Source: an uncultured Lachnospiraceae bacterium (GTDB lineage: Bacteria > Bacillota > Clostridia > Lachnospirales > Lachnospiraceae). From it: a stretch of 64,000 nucleotides of DNA. The notes beneath the pieces were generated by a model. That model did not search any database and was not told where the DNA came from. It saw only the letters and a program-made list of their open reading frames with translations. A program made the translations under genes and the position numbers. The DNA is taken from NCBI GenBank assembly GCA_947623805.1, contig CANQHZ010000005.1, positions 1 to 64,000 of the forward strand. Direction: 5' to 3'. Numbering within the stretch: the first letter of the stretch is position 1; the number at the start of each line of letters is the position of its first letter. Positions 7,070 through 64,000 of the stretch are shown in pieces.

Positions 7070-7710
7070 CAGACGCGAGAATGCAGACATTTCTCCATTC
7101 ATTTGACAAGGAGCTGCCCACTTACCTTTGTGAGCTGGAAAAGTATGCAAAGAAGACAGGCGTACCTATAATACGCCCGCAGATGCAAAGCCTGCTCCGC
7201 TTTCTAATCACATGGAAAAAGCCGATGAACATACTTGAAGTAGGTACAGCGATAGGATTTTCGGCGCTGTTCATGAGCGAGTATGCCCCAAAGAACTGTC
7301 ACATCACCACCATAGAAAAGTATGAAAAACGCATACCGCTTGCCAAGGAGAACTTTTCAAAGGCGGGAAAGGCGGATGCTATCACTCTGATTGAGGGCGA
7401 TGCCGCTGACGTGCTTTTACGCCTCTCCACTAACGAGGGTTTTGACTTGATTTTTATGGATGCGGCAAAAGGACAGTATATACACTTTCTGGAGAGCATA
7501 ATACGCCTGCTTTCACCAAGCGGCATAATCGTCTCGGATAACATCCTGCAGGAGGGCGAGCTGCTGGAATCAAAATACGCCATAACCCGCCGTAACCGCA
7601 CAATCCACAACAGAATGCGCGAGTACATCTACGCCCTCACGCACGATGACCGCCTCGAGACGGTAATCCTCCCCATAGCAGACGGCATAACGCTCTCAGT
7701 GAGAAAATAA
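7066..7710 (+). CDS. trmR: O-methyltransferase, TrmR/YrrM-like (tRNA ho5U34 methylation)
   Basis: ILEVGTAIGFSALFMSEYAP SAM motif; synteny with Bacillus yrrM. Confidence 0.8.
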   Translation: MTDARMQTFLHSFDKELPTYLCELEKYAKKTGVPIIRPQMQSLLRFLITWKKPMNILEVGTAIGFSALFMSEYAPKNCHITTIEKYEKRIPLAKENFSKAGKADAITLIEGDAADVLLRLSTNEGFDLIFMDAAKGQYIHFLESIIRLLSPSGIIVSDNILQEGELLESKYAITRRNRTIHNRMREYIYALTHDDRLETVILPIADGITLSVRK

Positions 7711-7745
7711 CAAGAGATTAAAATAAAACAATAGAGGAGATTGAC

Positions 7746-9023
7746 GTGCAAAACACAGACAACACAAGCATAAAAAAACCTGAACTACTTGTACCCGCAA
7801 GCAGCCTTGAAGTGCTCAAAACCGCCGTAATATTCGGAGCAGATGCTGTCTATATTGGCGGCGAGGCGTTTGGTTTAAGAGCCAACGCCAAAAACTTTTC
7901 CATTGATGAGATGGCTCAGGGAATAGAATTTGCCCACAAACGCGGCGTAAAAGTATACGTGACAGCCAACATTTTGGCGCATAACTATGACCTCGACGGA
8001 GCGCGCGAATATTTTACAGAACTCAAAAAAATCAACCCCGACGCCCTCATAATATCAGATCCAGGAATGTTCATGATAGCAAAACAAGTCTGCCCCGAAA
8101 TAGAAATACACATTTCCACGCAGGCAAACAACACGAACTATCAGACATACCTTTTTTGGTGGCAGCAGGGCGCAAAGCGCGTAGTGTCGGCGCGTGAGCT
8201 CTCACTAGAGGAAATACGCGAAATAAGGGACAAAATACCGCCCCAAATGGAAATAGAAAGCTTCGTTCACGGCGCAATGTGCATATCGTATTCAGGTCGC
8301 TGTCTCATGTCAAATTATCTCACAGGCAGAGACGCAAACCAAGGCGAATGCGCCCACCCCTGCCGCTGGAAATACTCAGTAGTGGAGGAAACGCGCCCCA
8401 ACGAATACATGCCGGTTTACGAAAACGAGCGCGGCACATATATTTTTAACTCGAAAGATTTGTGCATGATAGAGCATATCCCCGAGCTTGTGGCGGCAGG
8501 CATAGACAGCTTTAAAATAGAGGGTAGAATGAAGACAGCACTCTATGTCGCATGTGTGGCAAGAACTTACAGGCGCGCGCTGGACGATTTCTTTGAAAGC
8601 AGAGATAAATACTATGAAAATATGGAGTGGTATCGTCAGGAAATAGCAAAATGCACCTACAGGCAGTTTACCACAGGCTTTTACTTCGGCCGCCCCGACG
8701 AAACATCGCAGATTTACGACAACAGCACGTATGTAAACGAATACACATATCTCGGCACAGTGGAAATGATAGACAAAAGAGGCTTTGCTAAATTCGAGCA
8801 GAGAAATAAATTCTCTGTAGGCGACACAATCGAGCTCATGAAACCAAACGGTGAAAACATCACAGCCCAAGTGCTTTCCATGTACAACGAAGACGGCGAA
8901 AGCGTTGAAAGTTGCCCGCACTCAAAGCAGATACTGTACGCGGAGCTGTCAGCCCAAGCCCAGCCCTATGACCTGATGCGCGTCAAAGCTAGGGAAAGCG
9001 GGATACAGTATACATGGGTGTGA
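7746..9023 (+). CDS. trhP: U32 family peptidase-like tRNA hydroxylation protein (TrhP/YrrO-like)
   Basis: ADAVYIGGEAFGLRANAKNF, HGAMCISYSGRCLMSNYLTGRDANQGECAHPCRW. Confidence 0.88.
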   Translation: MQNTDNTSIKKPELLVPASSLEVLKTAVIFGADAVYIGGEAFGLRANAKNFSIDEMAQGIEFAHKRGVKVYVTANILAHNYDLDGAREYFTELKKINPDALIISDPGMFMIAKQVCPEIEIHISTQANNTNYQTYLFWWQQGAKRVVSARELSLEEIREIRDKIPPQMEIESFVHGAMCISYSGRCLMSNYLTGRDANQGECAHPCRWKYSVVEETRPNEYMPVYENERGTYIFNSKDLCMIEHIPELVAAGIDSFKIEGRMKTALYVACVARTYRRALDDFFESRDKYYENMEWYRQEIAKCTYRQFTTGFYFGRPDETSQIYDNSTYVNEYTYLGTVEMIDKRGFAKFEQRNKFSVGDTIELMKPNGENITAQVLSMYNEDGESVESCPHSKQILYAELSAQAQPYDLMRVKARESGIQYTWV

Positions 9024-38530: not shown

Positions 38531-39616
38531 ATGAACAATATAGCGTTGATAACAGGTATAACAGGGCAGGACGGCTCATATCTGGCTGAATTTCTGCTTG
38601 CAAAGGGCTATGAGGTGCATGGACTTATCAGAAGGCATAGTATATCAAATACCATGCGAATAGACCATTTGATTAATTCGGACTATAACAAGGTAAAGTT
38701 TTTCCTGCATTATGCGGACACGACAGATTCGTCAAATCTTATGAGGATTATAGGCGAGATAAGACCTACGGAGGTGTACAACCTTGCGGCGCAGTCGCAT
38801 GTGGGCGTTTCTTTTGAGGTGCCTGAGTATACGGCGGATGCGACAGGTGTGAGTACATTAAAGCTTTTGGAGGCGATAAGGGTAAACGGAGGCAACTGCA
38901 GATATTATCAGGCGTCAACGTCGGAGCTTTTTGGAGGACTTCCTGAAACAGCACCGCAAAGCGAGGCCACACCGTTTTATCCAAAGAGCCCTTACGGAGT
39001 AGCAAAGCTTTATTCTTACTGGATAACAGTCAATTACAGAGAATCTTATAATCTGTTTGCATGCAATGGTATTCTTTTTAATCATGAATCGCCAAGACGC
39101 GGCGAGAATTTCGTTACAAGGAAGATTACGCTTGCCATAGCTAACATAATAGCAGGAAGACAAAGCAAGCTCTCGCTTGGAAACATGAACGCCAAGAGGG
39201 ATTGGGGCTTTGCAGGTGATTATGTAGAGGGTATGTGGCTTATGCTGCAGCAGCCGTCCCCCGGAGATTATGTACTTGCGACAAATGAGACGCATACTGT
39301 GCGTCAGTTTGTAGAAGCTGCATTTGCTGAGCTTGGAATTGTCATTCGCTGGGAGGGCGAGGGTGTCAGGGAAAAAGGGTATGATGCGGAGACAGGAAAT
39401 CTTTTGGTTGACGTAAATCCTGAATTTTATCGTCCCGCAGAGGTTGAATTTCTCTGGGGCAATCCTGCCAAGGCGGAAAAGACACTCGGCTGGAAGCGTA
39501 AAGTGGATTTCAGGCATCTCGTGGCAATGATGATGGACGCGGATTTGAAAGCGATAACGGGAATGTCATGTGAAGAATATAAGAATAAGAGAAAAAACGG
39601 AGCGAACAATGAATAA
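38531..39616 (+). CDS. gmd: GDP-mannose 4,6-dehydratase
   Basis: [48 protein letters not shown]. Confidence 0.95.
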
Positions 39617-40550
39617 ATCGGATAAAATATATGTGGCAGGGCATAGAGGGCTTGTCGGTTCGGCTATAGTAAGGAATTTAAAGGAAAAAGGCTATGAGAA
39701 TATTATAGGAAAGACACATGATGAGCTTGACCTCACCAATCAGAATGATGTCAGGAATTTCTTTGAAAATGAGCGTCCGGATATCGTAGTGCTTGCGGCA
39801 GCAAAAGTGGGCGGCATAAATGCCAACAATACTGCGCCTGCCGACTTTGCATATGAAAACATGCAAATTCAATGTAATGTTATCAAGTGCGCTCATGATT
39901 ACAAGGTAAAGAAACTGTTGTTTTTGGGCAGTACGTGTATATATCCGAGGCTTGCGCCGCAGCCCATACCCGAGGATGCGCTCCTTACCGGACCGCTTGA
40001 GGAGACAAACGAGGCATATGCGATTGCCAAAATTTCGGGAATGCAGATGTGCAAATATTTTAAGCGTCAGTATGGGGATAATTTTATAAGCTGTATGCCG
40101 ACGAATCTTTATGGTCCGTATGACAATTATGATTTGTCTGGTTCTCATGTAATGCCGGCTATGATAAGGAAGTTTCACGATGCTAAAATCAATAACAGTC
40201 CCAGCGTTGAGCTGTGGGGGACGGGTACGCCTCTGAGGGAATTTTTGTATGTTGACGATATGGCTGACGCATGTGTCTTTTTGCTCGAGAATTATGAGGG
40301 TGAGCAGCATGTCAATATAGGCACTGGCAAGGAAGTGACAATAAAGGAACTTGCCGAGGCTGTCCGACGTACGGTTGGTTATGAGGGCGAGATTATATGG
40401 AATAAGGATATGCCTGACGGAATGCCCAGAAAGCTTACCGACGTCAGCAAGCTTCACAAGCTTGGATGGACGCACAAGGTTGAGCTTGATGAGGGGATAC
40501 GCCTTGCGTATGATTGGTTTAAAGAAAATGTCGAAAATGCTCGACTATAG
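39609..40550 (+). CDS. fcl: GDP-L-fucose synthase
   Basis: [57 protein letters not shown]. Confidence 0.95.
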
Positions 40551-42736: not shown

Positions 42737-44137
42737 TTGATGAAACGTTTAGAGGCGGCAAAGAGGACAATTATATTACAGATGTCGTTGATTGGGCTGC
42801 TTTTTCATACTGCCGCCTATGTCTATGTGTGGATAAATGTTTACAATGATATCATGCAGCTGCACATGTGGAGAAGCTTTCATAGAAACGGTTTTGTGCT
42901 GCTTGCCGTGGTATATTTCCTGCTCCTTTTGTTTTTTATGGGGACATATGGGGGCTTGCGTATCGGATATCTGAAAGCGATGGATGTTTTCTTTTCGCAA
43001 GTTATTTCGCTTGCGTTTGTAAATGCTATATCTTATTTTCAGATAGCGCTTTTGTCGCTCGGGTTTGTGACCGCATATCCGCTTGTGCTGATGTTTTTGG
43101 CTCAGATAGCGATTTCCGCTGTTTGGATTTTTATAAGCAACAGGCTCTATCAGCAGTTTTTCCCTCCCAAAAAACTTCTCCTTATAAACGGTGACAGACC
43201 GATAGAGGATATATTAAGAAAATTTGCCACGCGCAAGGACAAGTACAGTATAATACGCTGCATGCGTGAGGATGAGGGCAGGGAGGCACTGGAAAAAGAA
43301 ATTGTCAAGGGCTATGACGGAGTGGTGCTGTGGGATATAAATACAAAGCTTAGGAACAGGCTTTTGAAATTCTGTTACAGCAAAAGCATAAGAATTTATA
43401 TGATGCCCAAGATACCGGATATAATGATTCAAGGCGCCGACCAACTTCATCTGTTTGACACGCCTATACTTTTGACAAGGGAATATTCAATGACTATCGA
43501 GCAGAGGGTGGTGAAACGGGCCATTGATATTGTGTGCTCTGTGATATTGATTGTGGTGACTTCGCCTATCATGCTGATAACGGCTGTGATTATCAAGCTG
43601 TATGATAAGGGACCTGTGCTTTATAAGCAGGTGAGATGTACCCGCGATATGAAAGAGTTCAAAATCCTTAAATTCAGAAGCATGAGGACGGATGCCGAAA
43701 AGGACGGCGTAGCAAGGCTTGCATCAAAAAATGACGACCGTATCACTCCGATAGGCAGGTTCATACGAAAAGTAAGGATTGATGAGCTGCCGCAGCTCTT
43801 TAATATTTTAAAAGGTGAGATGTCATTTATCGGGCCTAGGCCGGAAAGACCTGAGATTATAAAGCAGTATCAGGAGGATATGCCTGAATTTGTGTTTAGG
43901 ACAAAGGTTAAGGCTGGGCTTGCGGGATATGCCCAGGTATACGGTAAATACAATACCACTCCTTACGATAAGCTGAAGCTTGACCTTTTTTATATTGAAA
44001 ATTATAGCGTGTGGCTTGATATAAGGCTTATGCTGCTGACATTCAAAATTCTTTTTCAGGCGGAGAGTACAGAGGGAATAGATGAAAACCAGATAACTGC
44101 GATTAGAAACAGTGAGAAGTTTGAAGAAAATCATTAA
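42737..44137 (+). CDS. Polyprenyl glycosylphosphotransferase (initiating sugar transferase)
   Basis: KRAIDIVCSVILIVVTSPIMLITAVIIKLYDKGPVLYKQVR...KILKFRSMRTDAE; RKVRIDELPQLFNILKGEMSFIGPRPER. Confidence 0.94.
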   Translation: MMKRLEAAKRTIILQMSLIGLLFHTAAYVYVWINVYNDIMQLHMWRSFHRNGFVLLAVVYFLLLLFFMGTYGGLRIGYLKAMDVFFSQVISLAFVNAISYFQIALLSLGFVTAYPLVLMFLAQIAISAVWIFISNRLYQQFFPPKKLLLINGDRPIEDILRKFATRKDKYSIIRCMREDEGREALEKEIVKGYDGVVLWDINTKLRNRLLKFCYSKSIRIYMMPKIPDIMIQGADQLHLFDTPILLTREYSMTIEQRVVKRAIDIVCSVILIVVTSPIMLITAVIIKLYDKGPVLYKQVRCTRDMKEFKILKFRSMRTDAEKDGVARLASKNDDRITPIGRFIRKVRIDELPQLFNILKGEMSFIGPRPERPEIIKQYQEDMPEFVFRTKVKAGLAGYAQVYGKYNTTPYDKLKLDLFYIENYSVWLDIRLMLLTFKILFQAESTEGIDENQITAIRNSEKFEENH

Positions 44138-44183
44138 AACTATTGATTGGAGTGTCCTTTTAAGCGGGCATGGGGTATAAAAA

Positions 44184-45215
44184 ATGATTGATAAGGCAAT
44201 ACGGCACGAGGGAATAGACAGCAGGGCGTTGCTTACCTGCTTTATAAAGCGTCTGCCGCTTATGCTGACGCTGGCTGTGACCGGTGCCGTGGCAGGCAGC
44301 GGTCTTAATTTGATTTTAGCCTTTATTGATTTGTCATCACCGCTGTATGTGTCAGAGACGGAATATTACATTGACTTCGCGGACGGAAGGTATGAGGCGA
44401 GGGACTATTACAATGCTTTTACATGGAATGATGTCATTGTGACGGACAAGCTTATACTTGGCAATGTGATGGACATGCTCGGCGAAGGGTATGACAGGGA
44501 AAAAGTTAAAAGTATGGTATCTGCCGCTATATTATCCGATGTGCGTTATCTGACTGTCACTGTCAAAGGCGAAAACGCTGAAACGGTAGATAAAGTGCAA
44601 AAGGCTTTTCGGGTGTCGCTCGAACATTTTGGCACGATGATGGACGAGTTTGACAGTATTTATCTGATAGATGACTCGGGAATAAAAAAAGAGCAGGCAA
44701 GATTTTTTTACTGGCGGGCTGCTGTGCTTGGGGCGTTGGTGCTTTTGGGCTGTGGTGTATTTGGAGTGGTGTTTAGATTTTGCCTGGGCGATTGCATATA
44801 TACTAAGGAGGATATACGAAGATATTTCGGATTGCCAGCATACGGACTTCTTTATTCAGACAAAAATAATGCGGACGGGCGGCAGGAAAAAATGCTTGCC
44901 GAGGCGCTTATGAGTGTGTCGGAGGAGAATGAAAGGCTGATATTTGCGGATGCCTTGGATAATAGGATTGTGGGTGAATTTATAAGGAAGCTGGGAGAGC
45001 TTAAAATACTGGACAGCAAAGTTTGTATGGAGGCGTTGGACAGGACAAGAGATGTCGCGAAGCATGAGGTAATATTTGTCATTCCGTTTGGAGTGCCATG
45101 CAGGCAGCGTGTTGCGGACGAAATAAATCAGCTTGAGCTGCTTGGCTGCAAGGTTAAGGGAGCTGTGCTTGCCGAGGCGGACAAGGGCTGGATGAGATTG
45201 TATTTTGGGAGGTAG
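44184..45215 (+). CDS. Wzz-like polysaccharide co-polymerase with degenerate cytoplasmic domain
   Basis: Two TMs flanking an extracytoplasmic domain; C-terminal BY-kinase-like tail without a Walker A motif. Confidence 0.65.
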   Translation: MIDKAIRHEGIDSRALLTCFIKRLPLMLTLAVTGAVAGSGLNLILAFIDLSSPLYVSETEYYIDFADGRYEARDYYNAFTWNDVIVTDKLILGNVMDMLGEGYDREKVKSMVSAAILSDVRYLTVTVKGENAETVDKVQKAFRVSLEHFGTMMDEFDSIYLIDDSGIKKEQARFFYWRAAVLGALVLLGCGVFGVVFRFCLGDCIYTKEDIRRYFGLPAYGLLYSDKNNADGRQEKMLAEALMSVSEENERLIFADALDNRIVGEFIRKLGELKILDSKVCMEALDRTRDVAKHEVIFVIPFGVPCRQRVADEINQLELLGCKVKGAVLAEADKGWMRLYFGR

Positions 45216-45219
45216 GTTG

Positions 45220-46017
45220 ATGAGATTACAGGTATTGATATCGGCTGTGAATGAGGATATTTTTACATTGGCGGAGCGTATGGGACTTGAAAGCGACGCG
45301 ATAATAATTAACCAGACCGAGCATTTTGGCTACAGGGAGTATGAGCGAAGCTGCAAGACGGGCAGAAAGCAGGTCAAGTGTTACAGCTTTGACGAAAGAG
45401 GCGTGGGACTTAGCAGGAATAATGCGCTTATGCGGGCGAGCGGGGACATCGTGCTCTTTGCCGATGAGGATATAGTGTACAACAGCGGATATGAGGAAAA
45501 AGTCTTAAACCAGTTTAAGGAGCATCCGGAGGCGGATTTTCTGCTGTTTAATATGCGGGTTGCCGACAGCCGCGCTACATACTATACGAGGAGATACCAT
45601 AGGGTTCATATCTGGAATGCGGGGCGTTACCCGACGTATTCTTTTGCCGTGAAACGTGAAAAACTGGAGGCGGCAAATATCACGTTTTCATTGCTGTTTG
45701 GAGGCGGCGCAAAATACAGCAACGGAGAAGACAGTCTGTTTTTAAGGGATTGCCTAAGCCACGGACTAAAGGTGTATGCTGTACCCGTTGAGCTTGGATA
45801 TGAACGGGAGAGAGAATCGACATGGTTCAACGGCTATACAGAGAAATTTTTTATCGACAGGGGAGTGCTTTATCATTTCCTTTATGGCAGGCTCGCCTAT
45901 CCTATGGCGATGAGGTTTATAGCCGCTCATGGAAAAGAAATGTGTGTGGAGATACCTCAAAAGGCAGCTCTGCGTCTGATGAAAAAGGGTATTGAATCGG
46001 TAAAGCAGTTTAAATAG
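45220..46017 (+). CDS. Glycosyltransferase family 2-like protein
   Basis: GVGLSRNNALMRASGDIVLFADEDIVYNSGYEEKVL; start ATG preferred over 45205. Confidence 0.8.
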   Translation: MRLQVLISAVNEDIFTLAERMGLESDAIIINQTEHFGYREYERSCKTGRKQVKCYSFDERGVGLSRNNALMRASGDIVLFADEDIVYNSGYEEKVLNQFKEHPEADFLLFNMRVADSRATYYTRRYHRVHIWNAGRYPTYSFAVKREKLEAANITFSLLFGGGAKYSNGEDSLFLRDCLSHGLKVYAVPVELGYERERESTWFNGYTEKFFIDRGVLYHFLYGRLAYPMAMRFIAAHGKEMCVEIPQKAALRLMKKGIESVKQFK

Positions 46018-46031
46018 GAGGATAATGCGCG

Positions 46032-47180
46032 TTGGGCAGAGCGTTGTCTATAATCTTTTATCTGATGATTGCGATAGTGACATGCGTTATGGCGCTGCAA
46101 GTCGGCACGAAAACCGAGTATAGCTTTGTAAACGGCAGGCGTACCAGGGAAAGTTTATGCGCCCGACTGTTCTTAGGCGGTATATTTACGGTACTGTTTG
46201 TTTGCTCAGCGCTTAGGTTTGGAATAGGAAACGATTACGGTCAGTATACGCAGACGGCGCATGAGGCTTACGTGGGCGGATATGTCGTCACGGAGACAGG
46301 TTTTAATGTATTGGTAAGGCTTATATACGGTCTTGTCGGGTTTGAGTGCTATGAGCTTGTGTTTGCCGTGTTTGCGTTTGCCACGATATATATTTTTCTA
46401 AAGGCGATGTACCGCCAAAGTGTTTCGTTTGGACAGTCATTTTTCCTGTTTATGACGCTTGGGTTTTATTTTCAGACTTATAATACAGTCAGGTATTATT
46501 TGGCGCTTGCCATTGCGCTGTATTCGATGAGATATGTGCTTGAGCGCGACTGGATAAAATTTGTGTTTGTGATTGTGCTGGCTTCTTTTTTTCACAAGTC
46601 TGTGTTGCTGGTGCTGCCAGTTTATTGGCTGGCATCGTTTGAGTGGAAAAGGATTTATATAATAATAGGCGCTATTTTAAGTGCGGTATGTTTTGCCTGC
46701 AAAGATATTGTGTTAAAGCTTGCGATTGCGCTTTATCCGTCGTATAAAAGCGGGGTTTACTTTGGGGATTCCGTGAATATAATAAGCGTGTTTAGGATAG
46801 CCGCCGTAATTGGCTTTTATTTTTGGTTTATGAAATATTCCAAGGATAAGCTTAAGCGGGACGGGGCAGAAACGGTAAAGAGAGAGCTGTACTTTTATGG
46901 GCAGCTGAATATTCTTGCATTTGCTGTGTGTACATTTTTTTATTTTCTGCCTGTGGTGACAAGGATTGCGTATTATTTTAGTGTTTCGCAGCTTTTGATG
47001 ATACCGCTGATAATAAGCCTGATTGATGATGAGACGCTGAGAAGAAAGATTAAGGTTGTCATAGCCGTGATATGTGTAATGTATTTTGCGGTATTTTTGT
47101 TTCAGGCGCATGGAGATGGAATAGGGCTGCTTCCTTATAGGAGCTGGCTGTTTACTACAGAGAGGTATACTTATAATTGA
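46032..47180 (+). CDS. EpsG/Wzy family polysaccharide polymerase
   Basis: Polytopic; LRFGIGNDYGQYTQTAHEA; FHKSVLLVLPVYWLA. Confidence 0.85.
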   Translation: MGRALSIIFYLMIAIVTCVMALQVGTKTEYSFVNGRRTRESLCARLFLGGIFTVLFVCSALRFGIGNDYGQYTQTAHEAYVGGYVVTETGFNVLVRLIYGLVGFECYELVFAVFAFATIYIFLKAMYRQSVSFGQSFFLFMTLGFYFQTYNTVRYYLALAIALYSMRYVLERDWIKFVFVIVLASFFHKSVLLVLPVYWLASFEWKRIYIIIGAILSAVCFACKDIVLKLAIALYPSYKSGVYFGDSVNIISVFRIAAVIGFYFWFMKYSKDKLKRDGAETVKRELYFYGQLNILAFAVCTFFYFLPVVTRIAYYFSVSQLLMIPLIISLIDDETLRRKIKVVIAVICVMYFAVFLFQAHGDGIGLLPYRSWLFTTERYTYN

Positions 47181-54638: not shown

Positions 54639-56126
54639 ATGCAGTTTACGACCTTTGAATTTATTATATTTTTCCCAATAGTAGTGGGCTTGTTCTATGC
54701 TATGCCCAAAAAGTTCAGGCAGCCGTGGCTTTTGGTTGTAAGCTACTATTTTTATATGGGCTGGAATGCCAAATATGCATTGCTTATACTTGCATCGACA
54801 GTGGTGACGTATGTTGGCGGTATTGTGCTGGAAAGGCTTGGCGACGATAAGAGGAAAAAGATTTTTGCGCTGAGCGCCTGCATTGCGGTAAATCTGGGGA
54901 TATTGGCGTTTTTTAAATATTTTTATTTTCTGCATGATACGCTTTCGGCGCTTGGCAGTCTTTTTGGTATTAAAATCAGCGAAACGCGGCTTGACATAGT
55001 GCTGCCTGTCGGAATATCGTTTTATACATTTCAGGCGCTCGGCTATATTATTGATGTTTACAGAGGCAATACGGCGGCGGAGAAAAATTTTGTGCGGTAT
55101 GCGCTTTTTGTGTCGTTTTTCCCGCAGCTTGTGGCAGGACCTATAGAGCGAAGCGGCAACCTAATCTGGCAGTTGGAGAGGCTTGGACGTGAAAATGTCT
55201 GGGATTTTGACAGGGTGACAAGTGGGCTGCTTACGATGCTTTGGGGCTTTTTTATGAAACTCGTGATTGCGGATAGGGCGGCAGTGCTGGTAAACACGGT
55301 ATTTGGAGTATACTATATGTGCAACGGTCTGATGCTTTTTATGGGAGTGTTCATGTTCGCAATACAGGTATACTGCGATTTTGCAAGTTACTCGGCAATC
55401 GCCATAGGCGCGGCGCGTGTGCTTGGGGTAGAGCTTATGCAAAATTTCAGAGCGCCGTTTTTTTCGACTAGCGTTGCCGAACTTTGGCGTCGGTGGCATA
55501 TTTCGCTGAGCTCTTGGTTTAAGGATTACGTCTATATTCCGCTTGGGGGAAACAGATGCTCTAAGCCGCGAAAAAGTTTCAATACTATGGTGACATTTGT
55601 CCTCAGTGGGCTTTGGCACGGCGCAAGCTGGCATTATGTGTTCTGGGGTGGGTTAAATGGCGCATATATAGTGGCGGGCGACTTATTAAGACCGTTAAAG
55701 GCGCGGATAAACAATAAAATAGGAGTGAGAAGCGACACGTTAGGCTACAGGTTTTTTCAAGGAGTGTGCACGTTCTTTCTGTTTATGTTTTCGCTCATAT
55801 TTTTCAGGGCCGATACGGTAAAGGACGGGTTCTACTATATTCAGAGGATGCTGGGCAGATTTGATATATGGTCGCTTTTCAACGAGTCGGTGTATAACTT
55901 TGGGCTTGACAGAAAAGAATTTGTCGTATTGTTTATAGGTGTAATTGTGCTTTTGATAGTAGATGCTTTCTATGTAATCAGAGGCAAATTTTTTGCCGAG
56001 CTGGTAAAGGGGCAGTGCCTTGCCGTGCAGTATGTGGTGACGATTACGATTTTGGTTATGATTATTGCGTGCGGTGTGTATGGAGAGGGCTATGACGCGT
56101 CTCAGTTTATATATTTTCAATTCTGA
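54639..56126 (+). CDS. MBOAT family O-acyltransferase (AlgI/DltB-like)
   Basis: GISFYTFQALGYIIDVYRG; FPQLVAGPIERSGNL; LWRRWHISLSSWFKDYVYIPLGG; LSGLWHGASWHYVFWG. Confidence 0.94.
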   Translation: MQFTTFEFIIFFPIVVGLFYAMPKKFRQPWLLVVSYYFYMGWNAKYALLILASTVVTYVGGIVLERLGDDKRKKIFALSACIAVNLGILAFFKYFYFLHDTLSALGSLFGIKISETRLDIVLPVGISFYTFQALGYIIDVYRGNTAAEKNFVRYALFVSFFPQLVAGPIERSGNLIWQLERLGRENVWDFDRVTSGLLTMLWGFFMKLVIADRAAVLVNTVFGVYYMCNGLMLFMGVFMFAIQVYCDFASYSAIAIGAARVLGVELMQNFRAPFFSTSVAELWRRWHISLSSWFKDYVYIPLGGNRCSKPRKSFNTMVTFVLSGLWHGASWHYVFWGGLNGAYIVAGDLLRPLKARINNKIGVRSDTLGYRFFQGVCTFFLFMFSLIFFRADTVKDGFYYIQRMLGRFDIWSLFNESVYNFGLDRKEFVVLFIGVIVLLIVDAFYVIRGKFFAELVKGQCLAVQYVVTITILVMIIACGVYGEGYDASQFIYFQF

Positions 56127-56131
56127 CAATT

Positions 56132-57520
56132 TTGATATGGGGTGGGACTTTGAAAGAGAAAAGAAAAATCGGAAGAGTTGCGGCGGTGGCGTTGTTTGTG
56201 GCGCTTGTGGCGGCAGTTTTGTTTGTTGAGGGACGGATATTGCGGGCAAAGTTTATAGGCGATTCCACAACTATAGTGAACGGTTTTTATAATGAAAAGA
56301 AAAATGATGTAGATATGGTGATAATAGGCAGCAGCAACAGCTTTTGCACGATAGACCCGCGTATTTTATACAAAGATTATGGGATTGCGGCGTATGACTT
56401 CGGGAGCTCATTGCAGCCTATGGAAATTTCGCTGCTTTATTTGAAAGAGGCGTTTAAAAGGCAGCAGCCGAAAGTGGTGGCGTTTGAGGTAAATATGCTT
56501 GTAGGCGACACAAATGATTTGGGCGAGGAGGCGCTTAGGTGGGGGTATACGGATATTCCGTTGTCCATAGATAAGCTTAAGTCTATTTATCATTCATTGG
56601 GAAATGGTAAGATGGGCGCGGAATATTTTTCCTATGTTTTTCCAGTGTTTCGGTATCATAATCGCTGGAAAGAGCTTACTAAGACGGATTTTACGTATTT
56701 TTATAAGGATAAGACAAATTATACAAAGGGGTACCTCGAGACCGGTACTGTGTACGGGGAGGGGGTAAATTTGAGCAGCTATTATAATGAGTGCGATGCC
56801 TGGATAAGTGATGAGAATATGGCGTGTTTTGATGAAATGTTAAAGCTGTGCGAGGAAAATGGCGCTAAGCTGCTGCTTTTTAAGTCACCGAGGGAGGGGT
56901 GGTACAGCGCTTATACTGAGCTGGTGGAGAAGCTTGCGGCAGAGCGTGGGCTTTTGTTTGTGGATTACAATAAGCTTTACTGTGAAAATGGGATAGAGCT
57001 TGATTTGGCGCAGGATTTTAGGGATACGGAGCATCTCAACGATTACGGAGCGGCAAAGGTGACGCGTCATTTGGGAGATTATGTCTGTCAAAATTATGAT
57101 ATGCCTGATAGGCGAGGGGATGCGGAGGAAAATTCGTGGGATGTGGCGGTATTGTATAAGGAAAGAAAGGATGACAGGGGATTTTTTGCGGCGCGGACTG
57201 CTAGGGAGTGTATTGAGATGCTGCAGGGGGATGAAAATTATGTGCTGATAGTGACGGATGCGGAGAATGGGAGTGAGGGGAAGGTACGACAGTGGGTGTA
57301 TGAGGATGGGAAAATTTTGATTGATAAGGTTTGGGATAGGGATGAGGTTTTGCATGTGAAGATTGGGGAGGATAGTGAGGTTGTGCTTGCTAAGAAAGGC
57401 TGGGTTAATCAGGTGCGGGTTGATGATGTGGAGCAGTATGAGGCTGGGAGGAAGTGGAATGTGGTGGTGTATGATAAGGTAGTGGGGAGTGTGGTGGGGA
57501 GTTTGTATTTTGATGAGTGA
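56132..57520 (+). CDS. SGNH/DltD-like membrane-anchored protein paired with MBOAT
   Basis: N-terminal TM; MVIIGSSNSFCTIDPRIL and DTEHLNDYGAAKV. Confidence 0.75.
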   Translation: MIWGGTLKEKRKIGRVAAVALFVALVAAVLFVEGRILRAKFIGDSTTIVNGFYNEKKNDVDMVIIGSSNSFCTIDPRILYKDYGIAAYDFGSSLQPMEISLLYLKEAFKRQQPKVVAFEVNMLVGDTNDLGEEALRWGYTDIPLSIDKLKSIYHSLGNGKMGAEYFSYVFPVFRYHNRWKELTKTDFTYFYKDKTNYTKGYLETGTVYGEGVNLSSYYNECDAWISDENMACFDEMLKLCEENGAKLLLFKSPREGWYSAYTELVEKLAAERGLLFVDYNKLYCENGIELDLAQDFRDTEHLNDYGAAKVTRHLGDYVCQNYDMPDRRGDAEENSWDVAVLYKERKDDRGFFAARTARECIEMLQGDENYVLIVTDAENGSEGKVRQWVYEDGKILIDKVWDRDEVLHVKIGEDSEVVLAKKGWVNQVRVDDVEQYEAGRKWNVVVYDKVVGSVVGSLYFDE

Positions 57521-57778: not shown

Positions 57779-58801
<1,023 letters not shown>

Positions 58802-58844
58802 TATTACGGTAATAATTATATTATAATAAGGAAGTGTGTTTGCG

Positions 58845-60044
58845 ATGGAGAGACCGGCGATAGCAGGCGGCGCGCCTGTGCGTGAGACAAAGCTGTCTTA
58901 CGGACACCAGTATATTGACGAGGCGGATATAAATGCGGTCTGCGAGGTGCTAAGGAGTGATTTCCTTACATGCGGACCGAAAGTGGAGGAACTTGAAAAA
59001 AGATTGTGTGAGCTTACGGGAGCGAAATATGCAGTAGCCTGCAGCAACGGTACGGCGGCGCTTCATATGGCAGCGCTTGCGGCGGGCTTGGGCGAGGGAG
59101 ACGAGATGATTACCACGCCTATAACCTTTGCGGCGTCGGCAAACTGCGCTCTTTACTGCGGAGCAAGACCTGTGTTTGCGGACATAAATCCGAGGACATA
59201 TAATATTGACCCGTCAAGCGTGGCTGAAAAAATCACGGAGAAAACCAAGGCTGTGACAGCTGTTGATTTTACGGGGCAGGCTGCGGAGCTTGACGAGCTT
59301 TTAAGGCTGTGCCATGAAAAGGGGATTTTGCTTATAGAGGATGGGGCACATTCCATAGGCACTAAATATAAGGGCAGGTATGTCGGCAGCATTGCGGATA
59401 TGACGACCTTCAGCTTTCACCCTGTAAAGACTGTGACTGGCGGCGAGGGAGGGGCTGTGCTTACTAATGATGCCAAGCTGTACGAGAAGCTTGTCTATTT
59501 CCGCACGCACGGCATTACGAGGGAAAGCGCTCTGTTTGAAAATGAGCCTCACGGTCCATGGTATCATGAACAGATTGACTTGGGCTACAATTACAGGCTT
59601 ACCGATATACAATGCGCGCTCATCATAAGCCAGCTTGACAAGCTTGAAAAATTTGCCGCAAGGCGCAGGGAAATTGTGGAAAGATACAACAAGGCGTTTT
59701 TGCAGATGCCTCAGCTTTTTGTGCAGGAGGAGATACCTGAGTCGGAGACGGTAAGGCATCTTTATATACTCCGCATAAAGCCTGAGACGCTCAATATTGA
59801 CAGAAAAGGCTTTTTTGAGGCGCTTGCGGCGGAGAATATATGCGGAAACGTGCATTATATTCCTGTGTACTGGCATCCTTATTATCAAAGGCTGGGATAT
59901 GAAAAAGGGCTCTGCCCGAATGCCGAAAAGCTTTATCAGGAGATTATAAGCTTGCCGATTTACTATTCGCTCACTGATGATGATGTCGATAGTGTGATTG
60001 AGGCTGTGAGGAAGATAGTTGAGTATTATAAGAAAAACATTTAA
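58845..60044 (+). CDS. pseC: UDP-4-amino-4,6-dideoxy-N-acetyl-beta-L-altrosamine transaminase, PseC
   Basis: DegT-type fold: DFLTCGPKVEELEKRLCELTGAKYAVACSNGTAALHMA; FSFHPVKTVTGGEGGAV. Confidence 0.93.
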   Translation: MERPAIAGGAPVRETKLSYGHQYIDEADINAVCEVLRSDFLTCGPKVEELEKRLCELTGAKYAVACSNGTAALHMAALAAGLGEGDEMITTPITFAASANCALYCGARPVFADINPRTYNIDPSSVAEKITEKTKAVTAVDFTGQAAELDELLRLCHEKGILLIEDGAHSIGTKYKGRYVGSIADMTTFSFHPVKTVTGGEGGAVLTNDAKLYEKLVYFRTHGITRESALFENEPHGPWYHEQIDLGYNYRLTDIQCALIISQLDKLEKFAARRREIVERYNKAFLQMPQLFVQEEIPESETVRHLYILRIKPETLNIDRKGFFEALAAENICGNVHYIPVYWHPYYQRLGYEKGLCPNAEKLYQEIISLPIYYSLTDDDVDSVIEAVRKIVEYYKKNI

Positions 60045-60095: not shown

Positions 60096-60785
60096 GTGAA
60101 AAGTGTAGCTATTATTACAGCAAGGGGCGGGAGCAAGCGTATTCCGCGAAAAAATATAAAACCATTTCTCGGAAAGCCTATTCTTGAATATAGCATAGAG
60201 GCGGCGCTGAAGACGGATGTTTTCTGCGAGGTTATGGTTTCTACGGATGACGAGGAGATAGCTCAGGTGGCAAAGAAAGCCGGGGCAAAGGTACCGTTTA
60301 TGCGCAGTGAAAAGACATCGAATGATTTTGCCTCGACGGCTGATGTTGTCGGCGAGGTGATTGATACGTATGAGCGTATGGGGATGAAATTTGAGCGCGC
60401 GTGCTGTATTTATCCTACGGCGCCGTTTATCACGCCTGACGCGATAAAAACAGCGATGGCGCTTTTGGAACAGGAAAAGGCGGATTGCGTCATACCTGTG
60501 GTGAAATATTCATTTCCTCCGCAGCGCAGCGTCGTAATAAATAACGGGCGGCTTATGGCAAAATGGCCTGAAAATATGGACAAGCGCTCCCAGGATTTAG
60601 AGCCGCTTTATCACGACTGCGGGCAGTTTTACTGTCTCAATGTTGAGAGCTTCAAAAGGCAGAGAGAAATCTGGATGGAGAATGCTGTGCCGTATATTCA
60701 GGATGATATCAATGTCCAGGATATAGATACGCTGGATGACTGGGAGATAGCGGAGATGAAATACAGACTTCTGAGAAATATGTAA
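60096..60785 (+). CDS. pseF: Pseudaminic acid cytidylyltransferase PseF
   Basis: AIITARGGSKRIPRKNIKPFLGKPILEYSIEAAL; YHDCGQFYCLNVESF. GTG start. Confidence 0.92.
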   Translation: MKSVAIITARGGSKRIPRKNIKPFLGKPILEYSIEAALKTDVFCEVMVSTDDEEIAQVAKKAGAKVPFMRSEKTSNDFASTADVVGEVIDTYERMGMKFERACCIYPTAPFITPDAIKTAMALLEQEKADCVIPVVKYSFPPQRSVVINNGRLMAKWPENMDKRSQDLEPLYHDCGQFYCLNVESFKRQREIWMENAVPYIQDDINVQDIDTLDDWEIAEMKYRLLRNM

Positions 60786-60887: not shown

Positions 60888-62843
60888 ATGGCTGGAGAAG
60901 AAATTAAGCCCCTATATAAAAATGTTATAAAAATAAGGGCATTTGAAGAATTGATTTTAGAATTGTTTGGCAAAAATAAGCTGTCAGGCACGACGCATAC
61001 CTATATCGGTGAGGAGGCAACTGCCGCCGCCATTATGACTATGGTTACTGATGAGGACTTTGTATTCAGCAATCATAGGTGCCATGGGCACTATCTGGCG
61101 TATGGCGGTCCCGCCCAAAAGCTGCTTGCCGAGATAATGTCAAAGCGTTCCGGTTTGTGTGAGGGCAGGGGAGGCAGCCAGCATATTCACTACAGGAATT
61201 TTTATACAAATGGGGTTCAGGGTGGAATTGTCCCAAACGCGGCAGGGGTTGCTTTTGCCAACAGGTTTAAGGGTAATGCTGGAAATACGATTGTCTTTTT
61301 GGGCGATGGTACATTAGGGCAGGGTGTCGTCTATGAGACTATAAATATGGCGCTGCTGTATAAGTGTCCTATCCTTTTTGTCATAGAAGACAATTCCTAT
61401 GCCATGAGCACGAGGCGCGAGGACGCTGTCTTTGGTGATATAAAGTCACGTATGTCAGGCTTTGGACTGGAGACCTATGAGATAACGAGCACTGATGCAG
61501 ATGAGCTTGTGGGCTTTTTCAGAGAGGTTTTTGACTGCTTAAATTCAAAAAGACTTCCTGTCTGTGCGGTAATTCACAATTACAGGCTGGGCGCGCATAG
61601 CAAGGGCGATGACACAAGGGCTCCGGAAGAAATTGACGTTCATAAAAAATCAGACCCCGTAAGACTTGTCGCCGAGCGCATAGGCGAGGAGGCATACAGG
61701 CGGATTTATAAGGAATATCGTGATGAATTTGAGGGTTTTGTCTCGCTCTTGGACAGTGAGGAGTCTGCGGATATCGAGGTACAGACGCTTCCGGCTGTGC
61801 CAGACTCGTTATCTCAGCTGTGTGAAACCGCGGAAAGATACGTGGACTGTATACAGGCCTCGTTTGATGAGGAATTGCAAAAAAACGAAAACCTTGTATT
61901 TATCGGCGAGGATATAAGAGGGCCCTATGGCGGCGCCTTTAAGGCGACAAAGGGACTTTCGGAGAAATATGATAATCGGCTTATAAATACGCCTATCAGC
62001 GAGGCAGGAATGACGGGAATGGCAGTAGGAATGGCTCTAAACGGCATGCTTCCCGTGGTTGAGATGATGTTCTGTGACTTTATCACGCTCGCTTTCGACC
62101 AGCTGCTAAACCATGCCTCAAAATATGGCTGGGTATACGGCGGCAGTGTCAGGCTTCCGCTGGTTATCAGGGTGCCAAGCGGCGCAAAACGCGGCTACGG
62201 ACCTACGCATAGCCAGTCACTGGAAAAATTTTTGACAGGCATTCCTATGATACGCGTAATAGCGTTATCATGCTTTCACAATCCGCAAAAGGTATATAAA
62301 AAGCTTTTTTCTTCAATAAAAGAGCCGACTATTGTTGTAGAGAACAAGAAGCTCTATGCTCAAAAAACGCAGCCAGTCATTAACGGAGCATATGAGGACT
62401 TTTCTGTGCGGGAGATAAATCATTATGGGTATTCGACTGTCTGCTTTTCGATGGACACCGACAGTGTGCCTGATGTATATCTGATAACATATGGCGGGCT
62501 TGCCGCAGAGGCTGTGGACGCGGCGACGGAGCTGATGATACAGGAGGAAATTCAGGCGGATGTCATTGTGCTCGGACAGCTTTCGCCTTTGCCGCTTGAT
62601 GATTTGAAGGAAATTCTGCATAGGGATGCCACGGTTTTGACGGTTGAAGAAGGGACGAGGACAAACGGTGTCGGCGCCGAGATAATAGCAGCTTTAGCCG
62701 AGCAGAATATAGGAAAGTCATATCATAGGCTTGCCGCGCCTGATATGCCTATTCCAAACGGAATAGTACTGGAAAGCCAGACTATTCCCGACAAACAGAA
62801 GATTATCGAAAAAGTAAAGAGAATTTGCGGTTATGGGAGATAG
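60888..62843 (+). CDS. Fused E1 alpha/beta thiamine-diphosphate-dependent 2-oxoacid dehydrogenase
   Basis: TPP motif GDG-X27-N at 61302 (GDGTLGQG...EDN), YRLGAHSKGDDTR; E1-beta half GEDIRGPYGGAFKATKGL, NTPISEAGMTGMAVGMAL, GPTHSQSLEK. Confidence 0.93.
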   Translation: MAGEEIKPLYKNVIKIRAFEELILELFGKNKLSGTTHTYIGEEATAAAIMTMVTDEDFVFSNHRCHGHYLAYGGPAQKLLAEIMSKRSGLCEGRGGSQHIHYRNFYTNGVQGGIVPNAAGVAFANRFKGNAGNTIVFLGDGTLGQGVVYETINMALLYKCPILFVIEDNSYAMSTRREDAVFGDIKSRMSGFGLETYEITSTDADELVGFFREVFDCLNSKRLPVCAVIHNYRLGAHSKGDDTRAPEEIDVHKKSDPVRLVAERIGEEAYRRIYKEYRDEFEGFVSLLDSEESADIEVQTLPAVPDSLSQLCETAERYVDCIQASFDEELQKNENLVFIGEDIRGPYGGAFKATKGLSEKYDNRLINTPISEAGMTGMAVGMALNGMLPVVEMMFCDFITLAFDQLLNHASKYGWVYGGSVRLPLVIRVPSGAKRGYGPTHSQSLEKFLTGIPMIRVIALSCFHNPQKVYKKLFSSIKEPTIVVENKKLYAQKTQPVINGAYEDFSVREINHYGYSTVCFSMDTDSVPDVYLITYGGLAAEAVDAATELMIQEEIQADVIVLGQLSPLPLDDLKEILHRDATVLTVEEGTRTNGVGAEIIAALAEQNIGKSYHRLAAPDMPIPNGIVLESQTIPDKQKIIEKVKRICGYGR

Positions 62844-62849
62844 TGTGAA

Positions 62850-63887
62850 ATGACAGAGATTGTGATGCCAAGGCTTGGGGTAAATGATGATTTTGTCACG
62901 CTTGTATCGTGGCTGGTGAATGACGGGGACTGGGTAAGTAAGGGGCAGAAGGTAGCCGAGATTGAGACCTCAAAAGAAGCAAATACCGTAGAGGCTGAAG
63001 TGGAGGGCATAATTTCACTGACAGCAAAAGAAGGGGAGGACATAGAGGTTGGCAAGCCCATTGCGTCAATCGGCGAGGGTGTATGTCCTAAGCCCGATGC
63101 TGACGGAGACAGTAAAGAGCCGTTCGATGTGCGCATGACGGAGAAGGCAAGAAAGCTTATCGAGGAGAATGGGATTGATGTTTCGCTGCTCCCAAAGGGC
63201 AGGCTTATAAAGGAAAAGGACGTTTTGCCGCTTGTCAAGCCGAGATATACTGTCAGCCCGACAAAAAATAACGAGATTATTCTTTACGGCGGCGGCGGTT
63301 TTTCTGTGATTGCGATTGATATACTGAAAGTATCCCATGCGTATCATGTCCATGGCATTGTGGACATAAAATATCCTGATTTGAAAGAGGTTATGGGAGT
63401 TCCAGTAATCGGAGGCGATGAATGTCTGGAGGAATTATACGCTTCAGGTTACAGAAAAATATTTAACGGGGTAGAGTCAAACGGAAGCCAGTATTGGAAA
63501 AAGCCGCCCTATGAAAAGCTGAAAAAATACGGCTTCGAGTTTCCTAATATAATTCATACAAGGGCTATTCTTGAACCAAGCGTATGTCTGGGCGAGGGCG
63601 TAATCATATGCGCGGGAGCGATTGTCGGGGCAAACGCGAGGATTGGCAACAACTGTATGATAAATGCGGGCGCGATATTGTCCCATGATGACATTATCAG
63701 TGATAACTGCCATATCGCATCGGGCGCTGTCTTGGCGGGTATTGTCACTGTCGGTGAAAATACTCTTATAGGACAAAACGTAACAGTGTATTCGCGCGTG
63801 AATATCGGAAGCAATGTTATAATAGAAAACGGCTGCTCTGTGTTTAAGGATGTCCCTGACAATACTGTGGTGAGGTATAAGCGGTGA
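62850..63887 (+). CDS. Chimeric E2-like protein: lipoyl domain + PSBD-like segment + PglD/NeuD-type acyltransferase
   Basis: Lipoyl IVMPRLG...EIETSKEANTVEAEVEG (Lys42); VRMTEKARKLIEENGIDVSLLPKGRLIKEKDV; hexapeptide-repeat helix GAIVGANARIGNNCMINAGAILSHDDIISDNCHIASGAVLAG. Confidence 0.88.
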   Translation: MTEIVMPRLGVNDDFVTLVSWLVNDGDWVSKGQKVAEIETSKEANTVEAEVEGIISLTAKEGEDIEVGKPIASIGEGVCPKPDADGDSKEPFDVRMTEKARKLIEENGIDVSLLPKGRLIKEKDVLPLVKPRYTVSPTKNNEIILYGGGGFSVIAIDILKVSHAYHVHGIVDIKYPDLKEVMGVPVIGGDECLEELYASGYRKIFNGVESNGSQYWKKPPYEKLKKYGFEFPNIIHTRAILEPSVCLGEGVIICAGAIVGANARIGNNCMINAGAILSHDDIISDNCHIASGAVLAGIVTVGENTLIGQNVTVYSRVNIGSNVIIENGCSVFKDVPDNTVVRYKR

Positions 63888-63888
63888 T

Positions 63889-64000
63889 ATGGAAGGGCTT
63901 ATATATCAGTCGTCTTTAAACAATCCTTACCACAACTTAGCAGCGGAAGCGTATCTTGCCCAAATATGCAGGGAGGAAAATAAAAGCTGCCTCTATTTGT
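63889..64000 (+). CDS. Lipoate-protein ligase A-like protein (N-terminal fragment, runs off window)
   Basis: MEGLIYQSSLNNPYHNLAAEAYLAQICREENKSCLYL resembles the LplA N-terminus (NLAxExxL...LYLW). Confidence 0.75.
   Translation, partial: MEGLIYQSSLNNPYHNLAAEAYLAQICREENKSCLYL

Follow-up and report, generated by a model that had tools for sequence, protein, structure and literature searches.

Gene organization of the locus

The window analyzed here, a stretch of 64,000 nucleotides on contig C5 of an uncultured Lachnospiraceae genome (G000), is an exopolysaccharide or capsule locus that is followed by a pseudaminate operon on the forward strand. The first genes of this operon code for PseB, an inverting UDP-GlcNAc 4,6-dehydratase (57806..58801; TIGR03589, 536 bits, cut-off 408), PseC, a UDP-4-amino-4,6-dideoxy-AltNAc transaminase (58836..60044; TIGR03588, 475 bits, cut-off 423.5), and PseF, a pseudaminic acid cytidylyltransferase (60096..60785; TIGR03584, 297 bits, cut-off 206). 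They are followed by a gene at 60888..62843 for a 651-aa protein representing a fused E1 alpha-beta component of a ThDP-dependent 2-oxoacid dehydrogenase or a related enzyme, as illustrated by Pfam matches to PF00676 (E=2.8e-41), PF02779 (E=3e-27) and PF02780 (E=2.3e-16). Its GDG...N motif for ThDP, the Glu of TPISEA and the loop histidines of HSQS and AHSKGDD are kept in three species. Only 6 bp separate the end of the E1 gene from the start of the gene of main interest (62850..63887, ATG start), which codes for a 345-aa chimera of a lipoyl domain, a peripheral-subunit-binding domain (PSBD) and a NeuD/PglD-type hexapeptide acyltransferase.

The next gene codes for an LplA-type lipoate-protein ligase of 328 aa on the same strand. 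Its ATG lies at 63889, 1 bp past the stop of the chimera gene at 63887, and the window contains its start (63889..64000), while the whole gene was read in the adjoining locus (L003:3889-4875). The protein matched PF21948 with E=1.1e-55, scored just below the cut-off of TIGR00545 (274.9 vs. 280 bits), and contains the RRxxGGG motif (RRTTGGGAVYQD). Further downstream are genes for an E3 of the dihydrolipoamide dehydrogenase type with CLNEGC and HPTVGE motifs (L003:4915-6285; TIGR01350, 405.3 bits, cut-off 408.8), for PseI (L003:6333-7397; TIGR03586, 497 bits, cut-off 340) and for a formyltransferase (PF00551) that runs from L003:7388 to the end of the locus (7388-7884), contig C5 ending inside the gene. 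The fused E1, LplA and E3, which lie partly beyond the end of the window, had been absent from the first-pass annotation of this DNA.

The gene for PseG was found at the end of contig C63 of the same genome. The last 116 bases of this contig (L054:9837-9952), just upstream of PseG, encode MAAGMERAEAFMLVRKCVKKDK, which matches the C-terminus of a PIG-L deacetylase from G003, a second genome of the same genus. Because of this PIG-L tail and the gene order in G003 (see below), we concluded that the ends of C5 and C63 flank one operon with the order PseB, PseC, PseF, fused E1, chimera, LplA, E3, PseI, formyltransferase, PIG-L (tail only), PseG. The pseudaminate gene set PseB, PseC, PseF, PseI and PseG is thus complete in a single operon, which is split by an assembly gap. 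A PseH-type GNAT was not present among the open reading frames read in the G000 and G003 loci, so that an N-acylation step would be vacant there. As part of the explanation that we consider probable from the gene content, E1, the chimera, LplA and E3 would form a dedicated lipoate-dependent acyl-activation module within the pseudaminate operon.

Several other genes were recorded around the operon. The window contains genes for a GDP-mannose dehydratase, an epimerase/reductase-like protein (GDP-fucose synthase-like by eye), a bacterial sugar transferase (PF02397) and an EpsG-type protein at 38531-40550 and 42737-47180. Just upstream of PseB, at 54639-57520, an MBOAT O-acyltransferase gene is followed by a gene for a 462-aa protein, resembling an AlgI/AlgJ pair; the second protein had no Pfam match at E<=1e-8, and the pair also occurs in G003 (L027:1005-3925). 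A protein of about 980 aa encoded after PseG is kept beside the operon in both genomes (L054:5554-8502, minus strand, and L027:16138-19098). It begins with an Acyl_transf_3 domain, and its C-terminal half is long, hydrophobic and unmatched in Pfam at the threshold applied.

Domain structure of the chimera

The first-pass annotation had read the protein as a lipoyl domain with K42 as lipoyl-lysine, a PSBD-like segment and a PglD/NeuD-type acyltransferase with a conserved His, the latter replacing the acyltransferase core of an E2 protein. Domain searches and two homologues bore out this order, and each part held up individually. The lipoyl domain (residues 1-77, 62850..63080) was recognized by PF00364 with E=1.6e-13 over residues 3-74; K42 (codon 62973-62975) lies within the motif ETSKEAN, and an alignment of the three known chimeras showed this Lys to be invariant.

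The PSBD with a short loop (residues ~93-130, 63126..63239) was only weakly matched by Pfam, since the E3_binding hit over residues 100-122 stayed below threshold (E=0.031, 14.9 bits vs. a cut-off of 23.7), but a profile control and a fold match were clear. A profile of the three chimera segments was aligned by hhalign to five PSBDs taken from canonical E2s of related or other genomes and reached a score of 25, while none of 300 column shuffles exceeded 14.8. Comparing the profile with PDB sequences gave nothing significant. The folding of the segment was checked with a stand-alone AF2 model built from chimera rows only, which showed the two-helix layout of a PSBD with a pLDDT of 75.8. Searching 350,542 PDB chains with this model by Foldseek retrieved PSBDs or PSBD-containing E2 models as all of the top 24 matches (TM ~0.6), the individual E-values being above 0.05 because the domain is tiny. 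An AF2 model of the full-length chimera from three rows was poor (pLDDT 47). When fragments of E2s and NeuDs were added to the alignment, the E2 pieces were misplaced, and this version was set aside.

The C-terminal part consists of a PglD_N nucleotide-sugar-binding domain (residues 143-204, 63276..63461; PF17836, 28.6 bits) and a left-handed beta-helix (63552..63884) identified by alignments to PerB and by the hexapeptide family PF00132 (Hexapep, residues 235-331, 54.8 bits). The best solved relative of the ACYLTRANSFERASE half is PerB (4ea7, E=1e-30). On the NCBIfam model TIGR03570 for NeuD/PglB/VioB, the chimera exceeded the cut-off of 160.8 with 165.5 bits, and its G003 homologue scored 176.6 bits. 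His279 (codon 63684-63686), corresponding to the catalytic base H125 of PglD, is conserved in all three chimeras. As the chloramphenicol-acetyltransferase-like core PF00198 was not found in the protein by Pfam search, the chimera was not classed as an E2; judged by its scores, it is a NeuD-family enzyme.

Deviations of the acyltransferase half from plain NeuDs

We compared the NeuD columns of the three chimeras with those of 19 plain NeuDs. The oxyanion-type Gly region is kept in the chimeras, and the PglD_N domain of the chimera contains GGGGF instead of the GGGGH of most NeuDs. The position of H151, a His of the nucleotide-sugar pocket in 18 of the 19 plain NeuDs, is occupied by F, F and I in the chimeras. 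This residue is His in PglD and Cys in the active PglD-like enzyme Pcryo_0637 (PMC8040287), so the change at 151 alone says little about the acceptor. E278 is replaced by S, N and S, and two residues that are invariant in all 19 plain NeuDs are altered, G326 to E, Q and Y and A327 to N.

In addition, all three chimeras end before the C-terminal G-x-P-A-K or cis-Pro segment; a plain NeuD used as control aligned to PerB through this segment, whereas the alignment of the chimera lacked it. In Pcryo_0637 and PglD, binding of CoA switches the conserved proline of the last-strand segment from the trans to the cis form (PMC8040287). The loss would fit a donor other than CoA, which is only suggestive. 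The GxPxK motif is also missing or unrecognizable in eight of the 19 plain NeuD homologues and is therefore no strict family marker; its loss is compatible with the use of CoA, and we dropped the missing GxPAK tail as a decisive sign of a non-CoA donor.

Homologues and distribution

Three full-length chimeras were found among ~1,400 genomes belonging to the phylum of G000, which were drawn as samples and searched with strict E-value limits in later rounds. The homologue in G003 is 54% identical over its full length (L013/L027) and has the same domain order. It lies in the run PseB, PseC, PseF, PseI, E1, chimera, LplA, E3, formyltransferase, PIG-L, PseG, in which several genes overlap by 4 bp and the block from E1 to E3 is intact despite the shifted position of PseI. 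In G429, a member of another genus of the same family, only the fused E1 and a chimera of 42% identity with the same domain order (L028) are present. In this region (L029:8623-18098), the pair directly follows a serine resolvase, genes for a SPASM radical-SAM protein and for an FkbM methyltransferase lie downstream of it, and no Pse genes occur within the 18 kb read. Possibly, the pair was acquired on a mobile piece of DNA, and it may act on a different glycan. The occurrence of the architecture in other nonulosonate loci, which the first-pass annotation had proposed to look for, was thus borne out by the pseudaminate operon of G003, whereas the G429 pair lies outside any recognizable pseudaminate operon, so that a link of the module to pseudaminate may not be obligatory.

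A scan of genome contigs brought up nothing but plain hexapeptide transferases and canonical E2s, and a search of plasmids yielded only plain NeuDs. NeuD matches with upstream stop codons in G772 and G890 were considered as split lipoyl and NeuD genes and turned out to be ordinary NeuDs. A canonical E2 of a related genome, G123 (L055:531-1856, minus strand), apparently contains two tandem PSBD-like segments after one lipoyl domain. The G000 genome also codes for a plain NeuD-type acetyltransferase on contig C8 (L057:1533-2156), located after a CBS-domain/nucleotidyltransferase-like gene, which suggests a second nonulosonate locus.

Lipoate-related genes in the genomes

Both G000 and G003 contain a single LplA and a single strong E1, in each case the copy at the locus. 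Neither a PF00198 E2 core nor a credible GcvH candidate was found in these genomes, which are 96% (G000) and 88% (G003) complete, incomplete drafts being able to hide genes. A weak GcvH match in G000, which was also the second PF00364 match, proved to be a biotin carrier with the motif EAMKMEIP. With LplA as the sole ligase and no E2 core or credible GcvH, the chimera is the only evident substrate of LplA in G000 and G003. G429 contains no LplA or E3 gene beside its chimera and carries a canonical set of E2, E3 and LplA on another contig.

Proposed function and alternative explanations

The chimera is best explained as part of a dedicated machine of the 2-oxoacid dehydrogenase type whose E2 has probably exchanged its CoA-acyltransferase core for a NeuD/PglD-type sugar N-acyltransferase. 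In the proposed cycle, the LplA of the locus would lipoylate K42, and E1 would decarboxylate a 2-oxoacid with ThDP and reductively acylate the lipoyl arm. The arm would then swing into the NeuD active site, where a UDP-linked pseudaminate precursor would attack the S-acyl-dihydrolipoyl thioester with one of its amines, promoted by His279. Finally, E3, probably held by the PSBD, would reoxidize the dihydrolipoyl arm, so that no CoA would be needed in the cycle. The transfer from E1 to the lipoyl group and the reoxidation by E3 are established 2-oxoacid dehydrogenase chemistry (PMC2663715). A CoA-independent route from the ThDP-bound acyl group of E1 via the lipoyl arm to the amine of a nucleotide sugar, with the module as the only apparent lipoate-using acyl complex of the cell, appears rather likely to us. 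The domains, the partner genes, the operon and the conserved block are documented by sequence and structure prediction, and no other lipoate-dependent acyl complex was found in G000 and G003; lipoylation, direct transfer, the UDP-sugar acceptor, the acylated position and the acyl group are inferred. The suggestion of the first-pass annotation that a nucleotide amino sugar receives its acyl group from the lipoyl arm fits the operon, the conservation pattern and the genome content and is supported by them at this level.

Because the operon contains genes for a formyltransferase and a PIG-L deacetylase, a 2-amine freed by deacetylation is as likely an acceptor as the 4-amine of UDP-4-amino-4,6-dideoxy-AltNAc. 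The two genes also suggest that the product could be free of acetyl groups at both of its nitrogens. It would then be a pseudaminate formylated at one nitrogen and acylated at the other with a group derived from a 2-oxoacid. N7-formylated pseudaminate is known from the pilin of Pseudomonas aeruginosa 1244 (PMC6222762). The sequence of E1 is no guide to the nature of the acyl group.

Several points count against the proposed machine. Since every cell has acetyl-CoA at hand, such a module would be of use mainly for an unusual acyl group. The examples number only three, and one of them lies outside a pseudaminate operon. Moreover, the linkers of the chimera (~17 residues between the lipoyl domain and the PSBD and ~10 between the PSBD and the NeuD part) are short compared to those of canonical E2s, which limits the reach of the arm.

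Among the alternatives, it is conceivable, if unlikely, that the NeuD part still uses acyl-CoA, which the lipoyl-PSBD arm would produce in situ together with E1 and E3 and channel to the sugar site. The passage of the acyl group from lipoate to CoA would in this case be catalyzed by the beta-helix domain or occur non-enzymatically. The use of acetyl-CoA by the NeuD relatives of known function, PerB and PglD (PMC8040287), and the retention of the catalytic His and the oxyanion-type Gly region agree with this explanation, but no E2 core for transferring acyl groups from lipoate to CoA was found in G000 and G003, the CoA-responsive C-terminal segment is gone and two helix residues invariant in NeuDs are altered.

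Another explanation, which we consider slightly less probable still, keeps the same machine and assigns it a different acceptor, which would be some other sugar or an intermediate from a later stage of glycan synthesis; that two of the examples lie among pseudaminate genes would then be incidental. The G429 pair without Pse genes in the 18 kb read and the altered H151 of the nucleotide-sugar pocket are in line with it. On the other hand, the block is placed between PseB/C/F and PseG in both full operons, where no PseH was seen, and the Cys at position 151 of an active PglD-like enzyme (PMC8040287) indicates that the change need not alter the acceptor.

It is very unlikely that the lipoyl arm functions in redox reactions or sensing, or is a defunct leftover, beside an independent, ordinary acetyltransferase. 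Acyl transfer is our reading of the sequence, and domain fusions can be scaffolds, but E1, E3 and LplA are kept adjacent in two species with intact motifs at 54% identity of the chimeras, and the retention of all three partners disfavors a leftover. Finally, an assembly or annotation artefact running two genes together, which might be suspected from the 229 contigs of the G000 assembly and the contig end cutting the operon, is practically negligible and was rejected, as the continuous reading frame with the same domain order recurs in three independent genomes at 42-54% identity.

If the proposed machine operates as outlined, lipoyl arms would join the acyl donors of sugar acyltransferases as a new class, and, provided that the transfer is CoA-free, the acyl-donor route itself would be new. 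It would further mean that the core of E2 is exchangeable for an unrelated trimer-forming acyltransferase, and would explain the need for lipoate in some anaerobes without other 2-oxoacid dehydrogenases. Another prediction is an as yet undescribed N-acyl group on a nonulosonate of the bacterial surface, for which mass spectrometry can screen.

Comparison with known systems

Established settings of lipoyl arms are central metabolism, where they feed CoA, the glycine cleavage system and, more recently, sulfur oxidation. One of the closest parallels to the chimera is the E2 component of 2-oxoacid dehydrogenases such as pyruvate, acetoin or branched-chain 2-oxoacid dehydrogenase, which shares the succession of a lipoyl domain, a PSBD and an acyltransferase core of the trimer type (for the chimera, a trimer by homology), and whose E1, E3 and lipoate ligase partners are encoded alongside as at the locus described here. 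In contrast to canonical E2s, the core of the chimera is the left-handed beta-helix of NeuD/PglD rather than the PF00198 fold, and its locus differs from those of canonical complexes in having E1 alpha and beta in one chain and a sugar-operon setting.

With the NeuD/PglD/PerB/VioB sugar N- or O-acetyltransferases, the chimera shares the PglD_N domain and beta-helix, the TIGR03570 score and the catalytic His, but it has the N-terminal lipoyl domain and PSBD in addition, lacks the CoA-responsive segment and is changed at H151, E278, G326 and A327. To our knowledge, no described NeuD carries a lipoyl-PSBD arm, and no description of a lipoyl-sugar system was found in the open-licence literature. 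The UDP-GlcNAc acyltransferases LpxA and LpxD, which gave weak matches to the chimera, are hexapeptide enzymes whose acyl source is likewise a carrier protein and not CoA; their carrier is a free phosphopantetheine ACP, whereas that of the chimera would be a covalently attached lipoyl domain.

Delivery of a ThDP-derived acyl unit by an E1-type enzyme and a lipoyl carrier occurs with NapB/NapD in naphthyridinomycin and QncN/QncL in quinocarcin biosynthesis, where the acceptor is the acyl carrier protein of a peptide assembly line instead of a sugar and no NeuD domain is involved. A lipoyl carrier outside the classical complexes with its own cluster-encoded ligase, as at this locus, has been demonstrated in the sHdr system of sulfur oxidizers, in which LbpA is served by a dedicated LplA (PMC6067878); LbpA differs from the chimera in being GcvH-like, in acting in sulfur oxidation and in lacking an E1 or acyltransferase partner (PMC6067878). 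In its way of working, the chimera would resemble the first half of a 2-oxoacid dehydrogenase complex.
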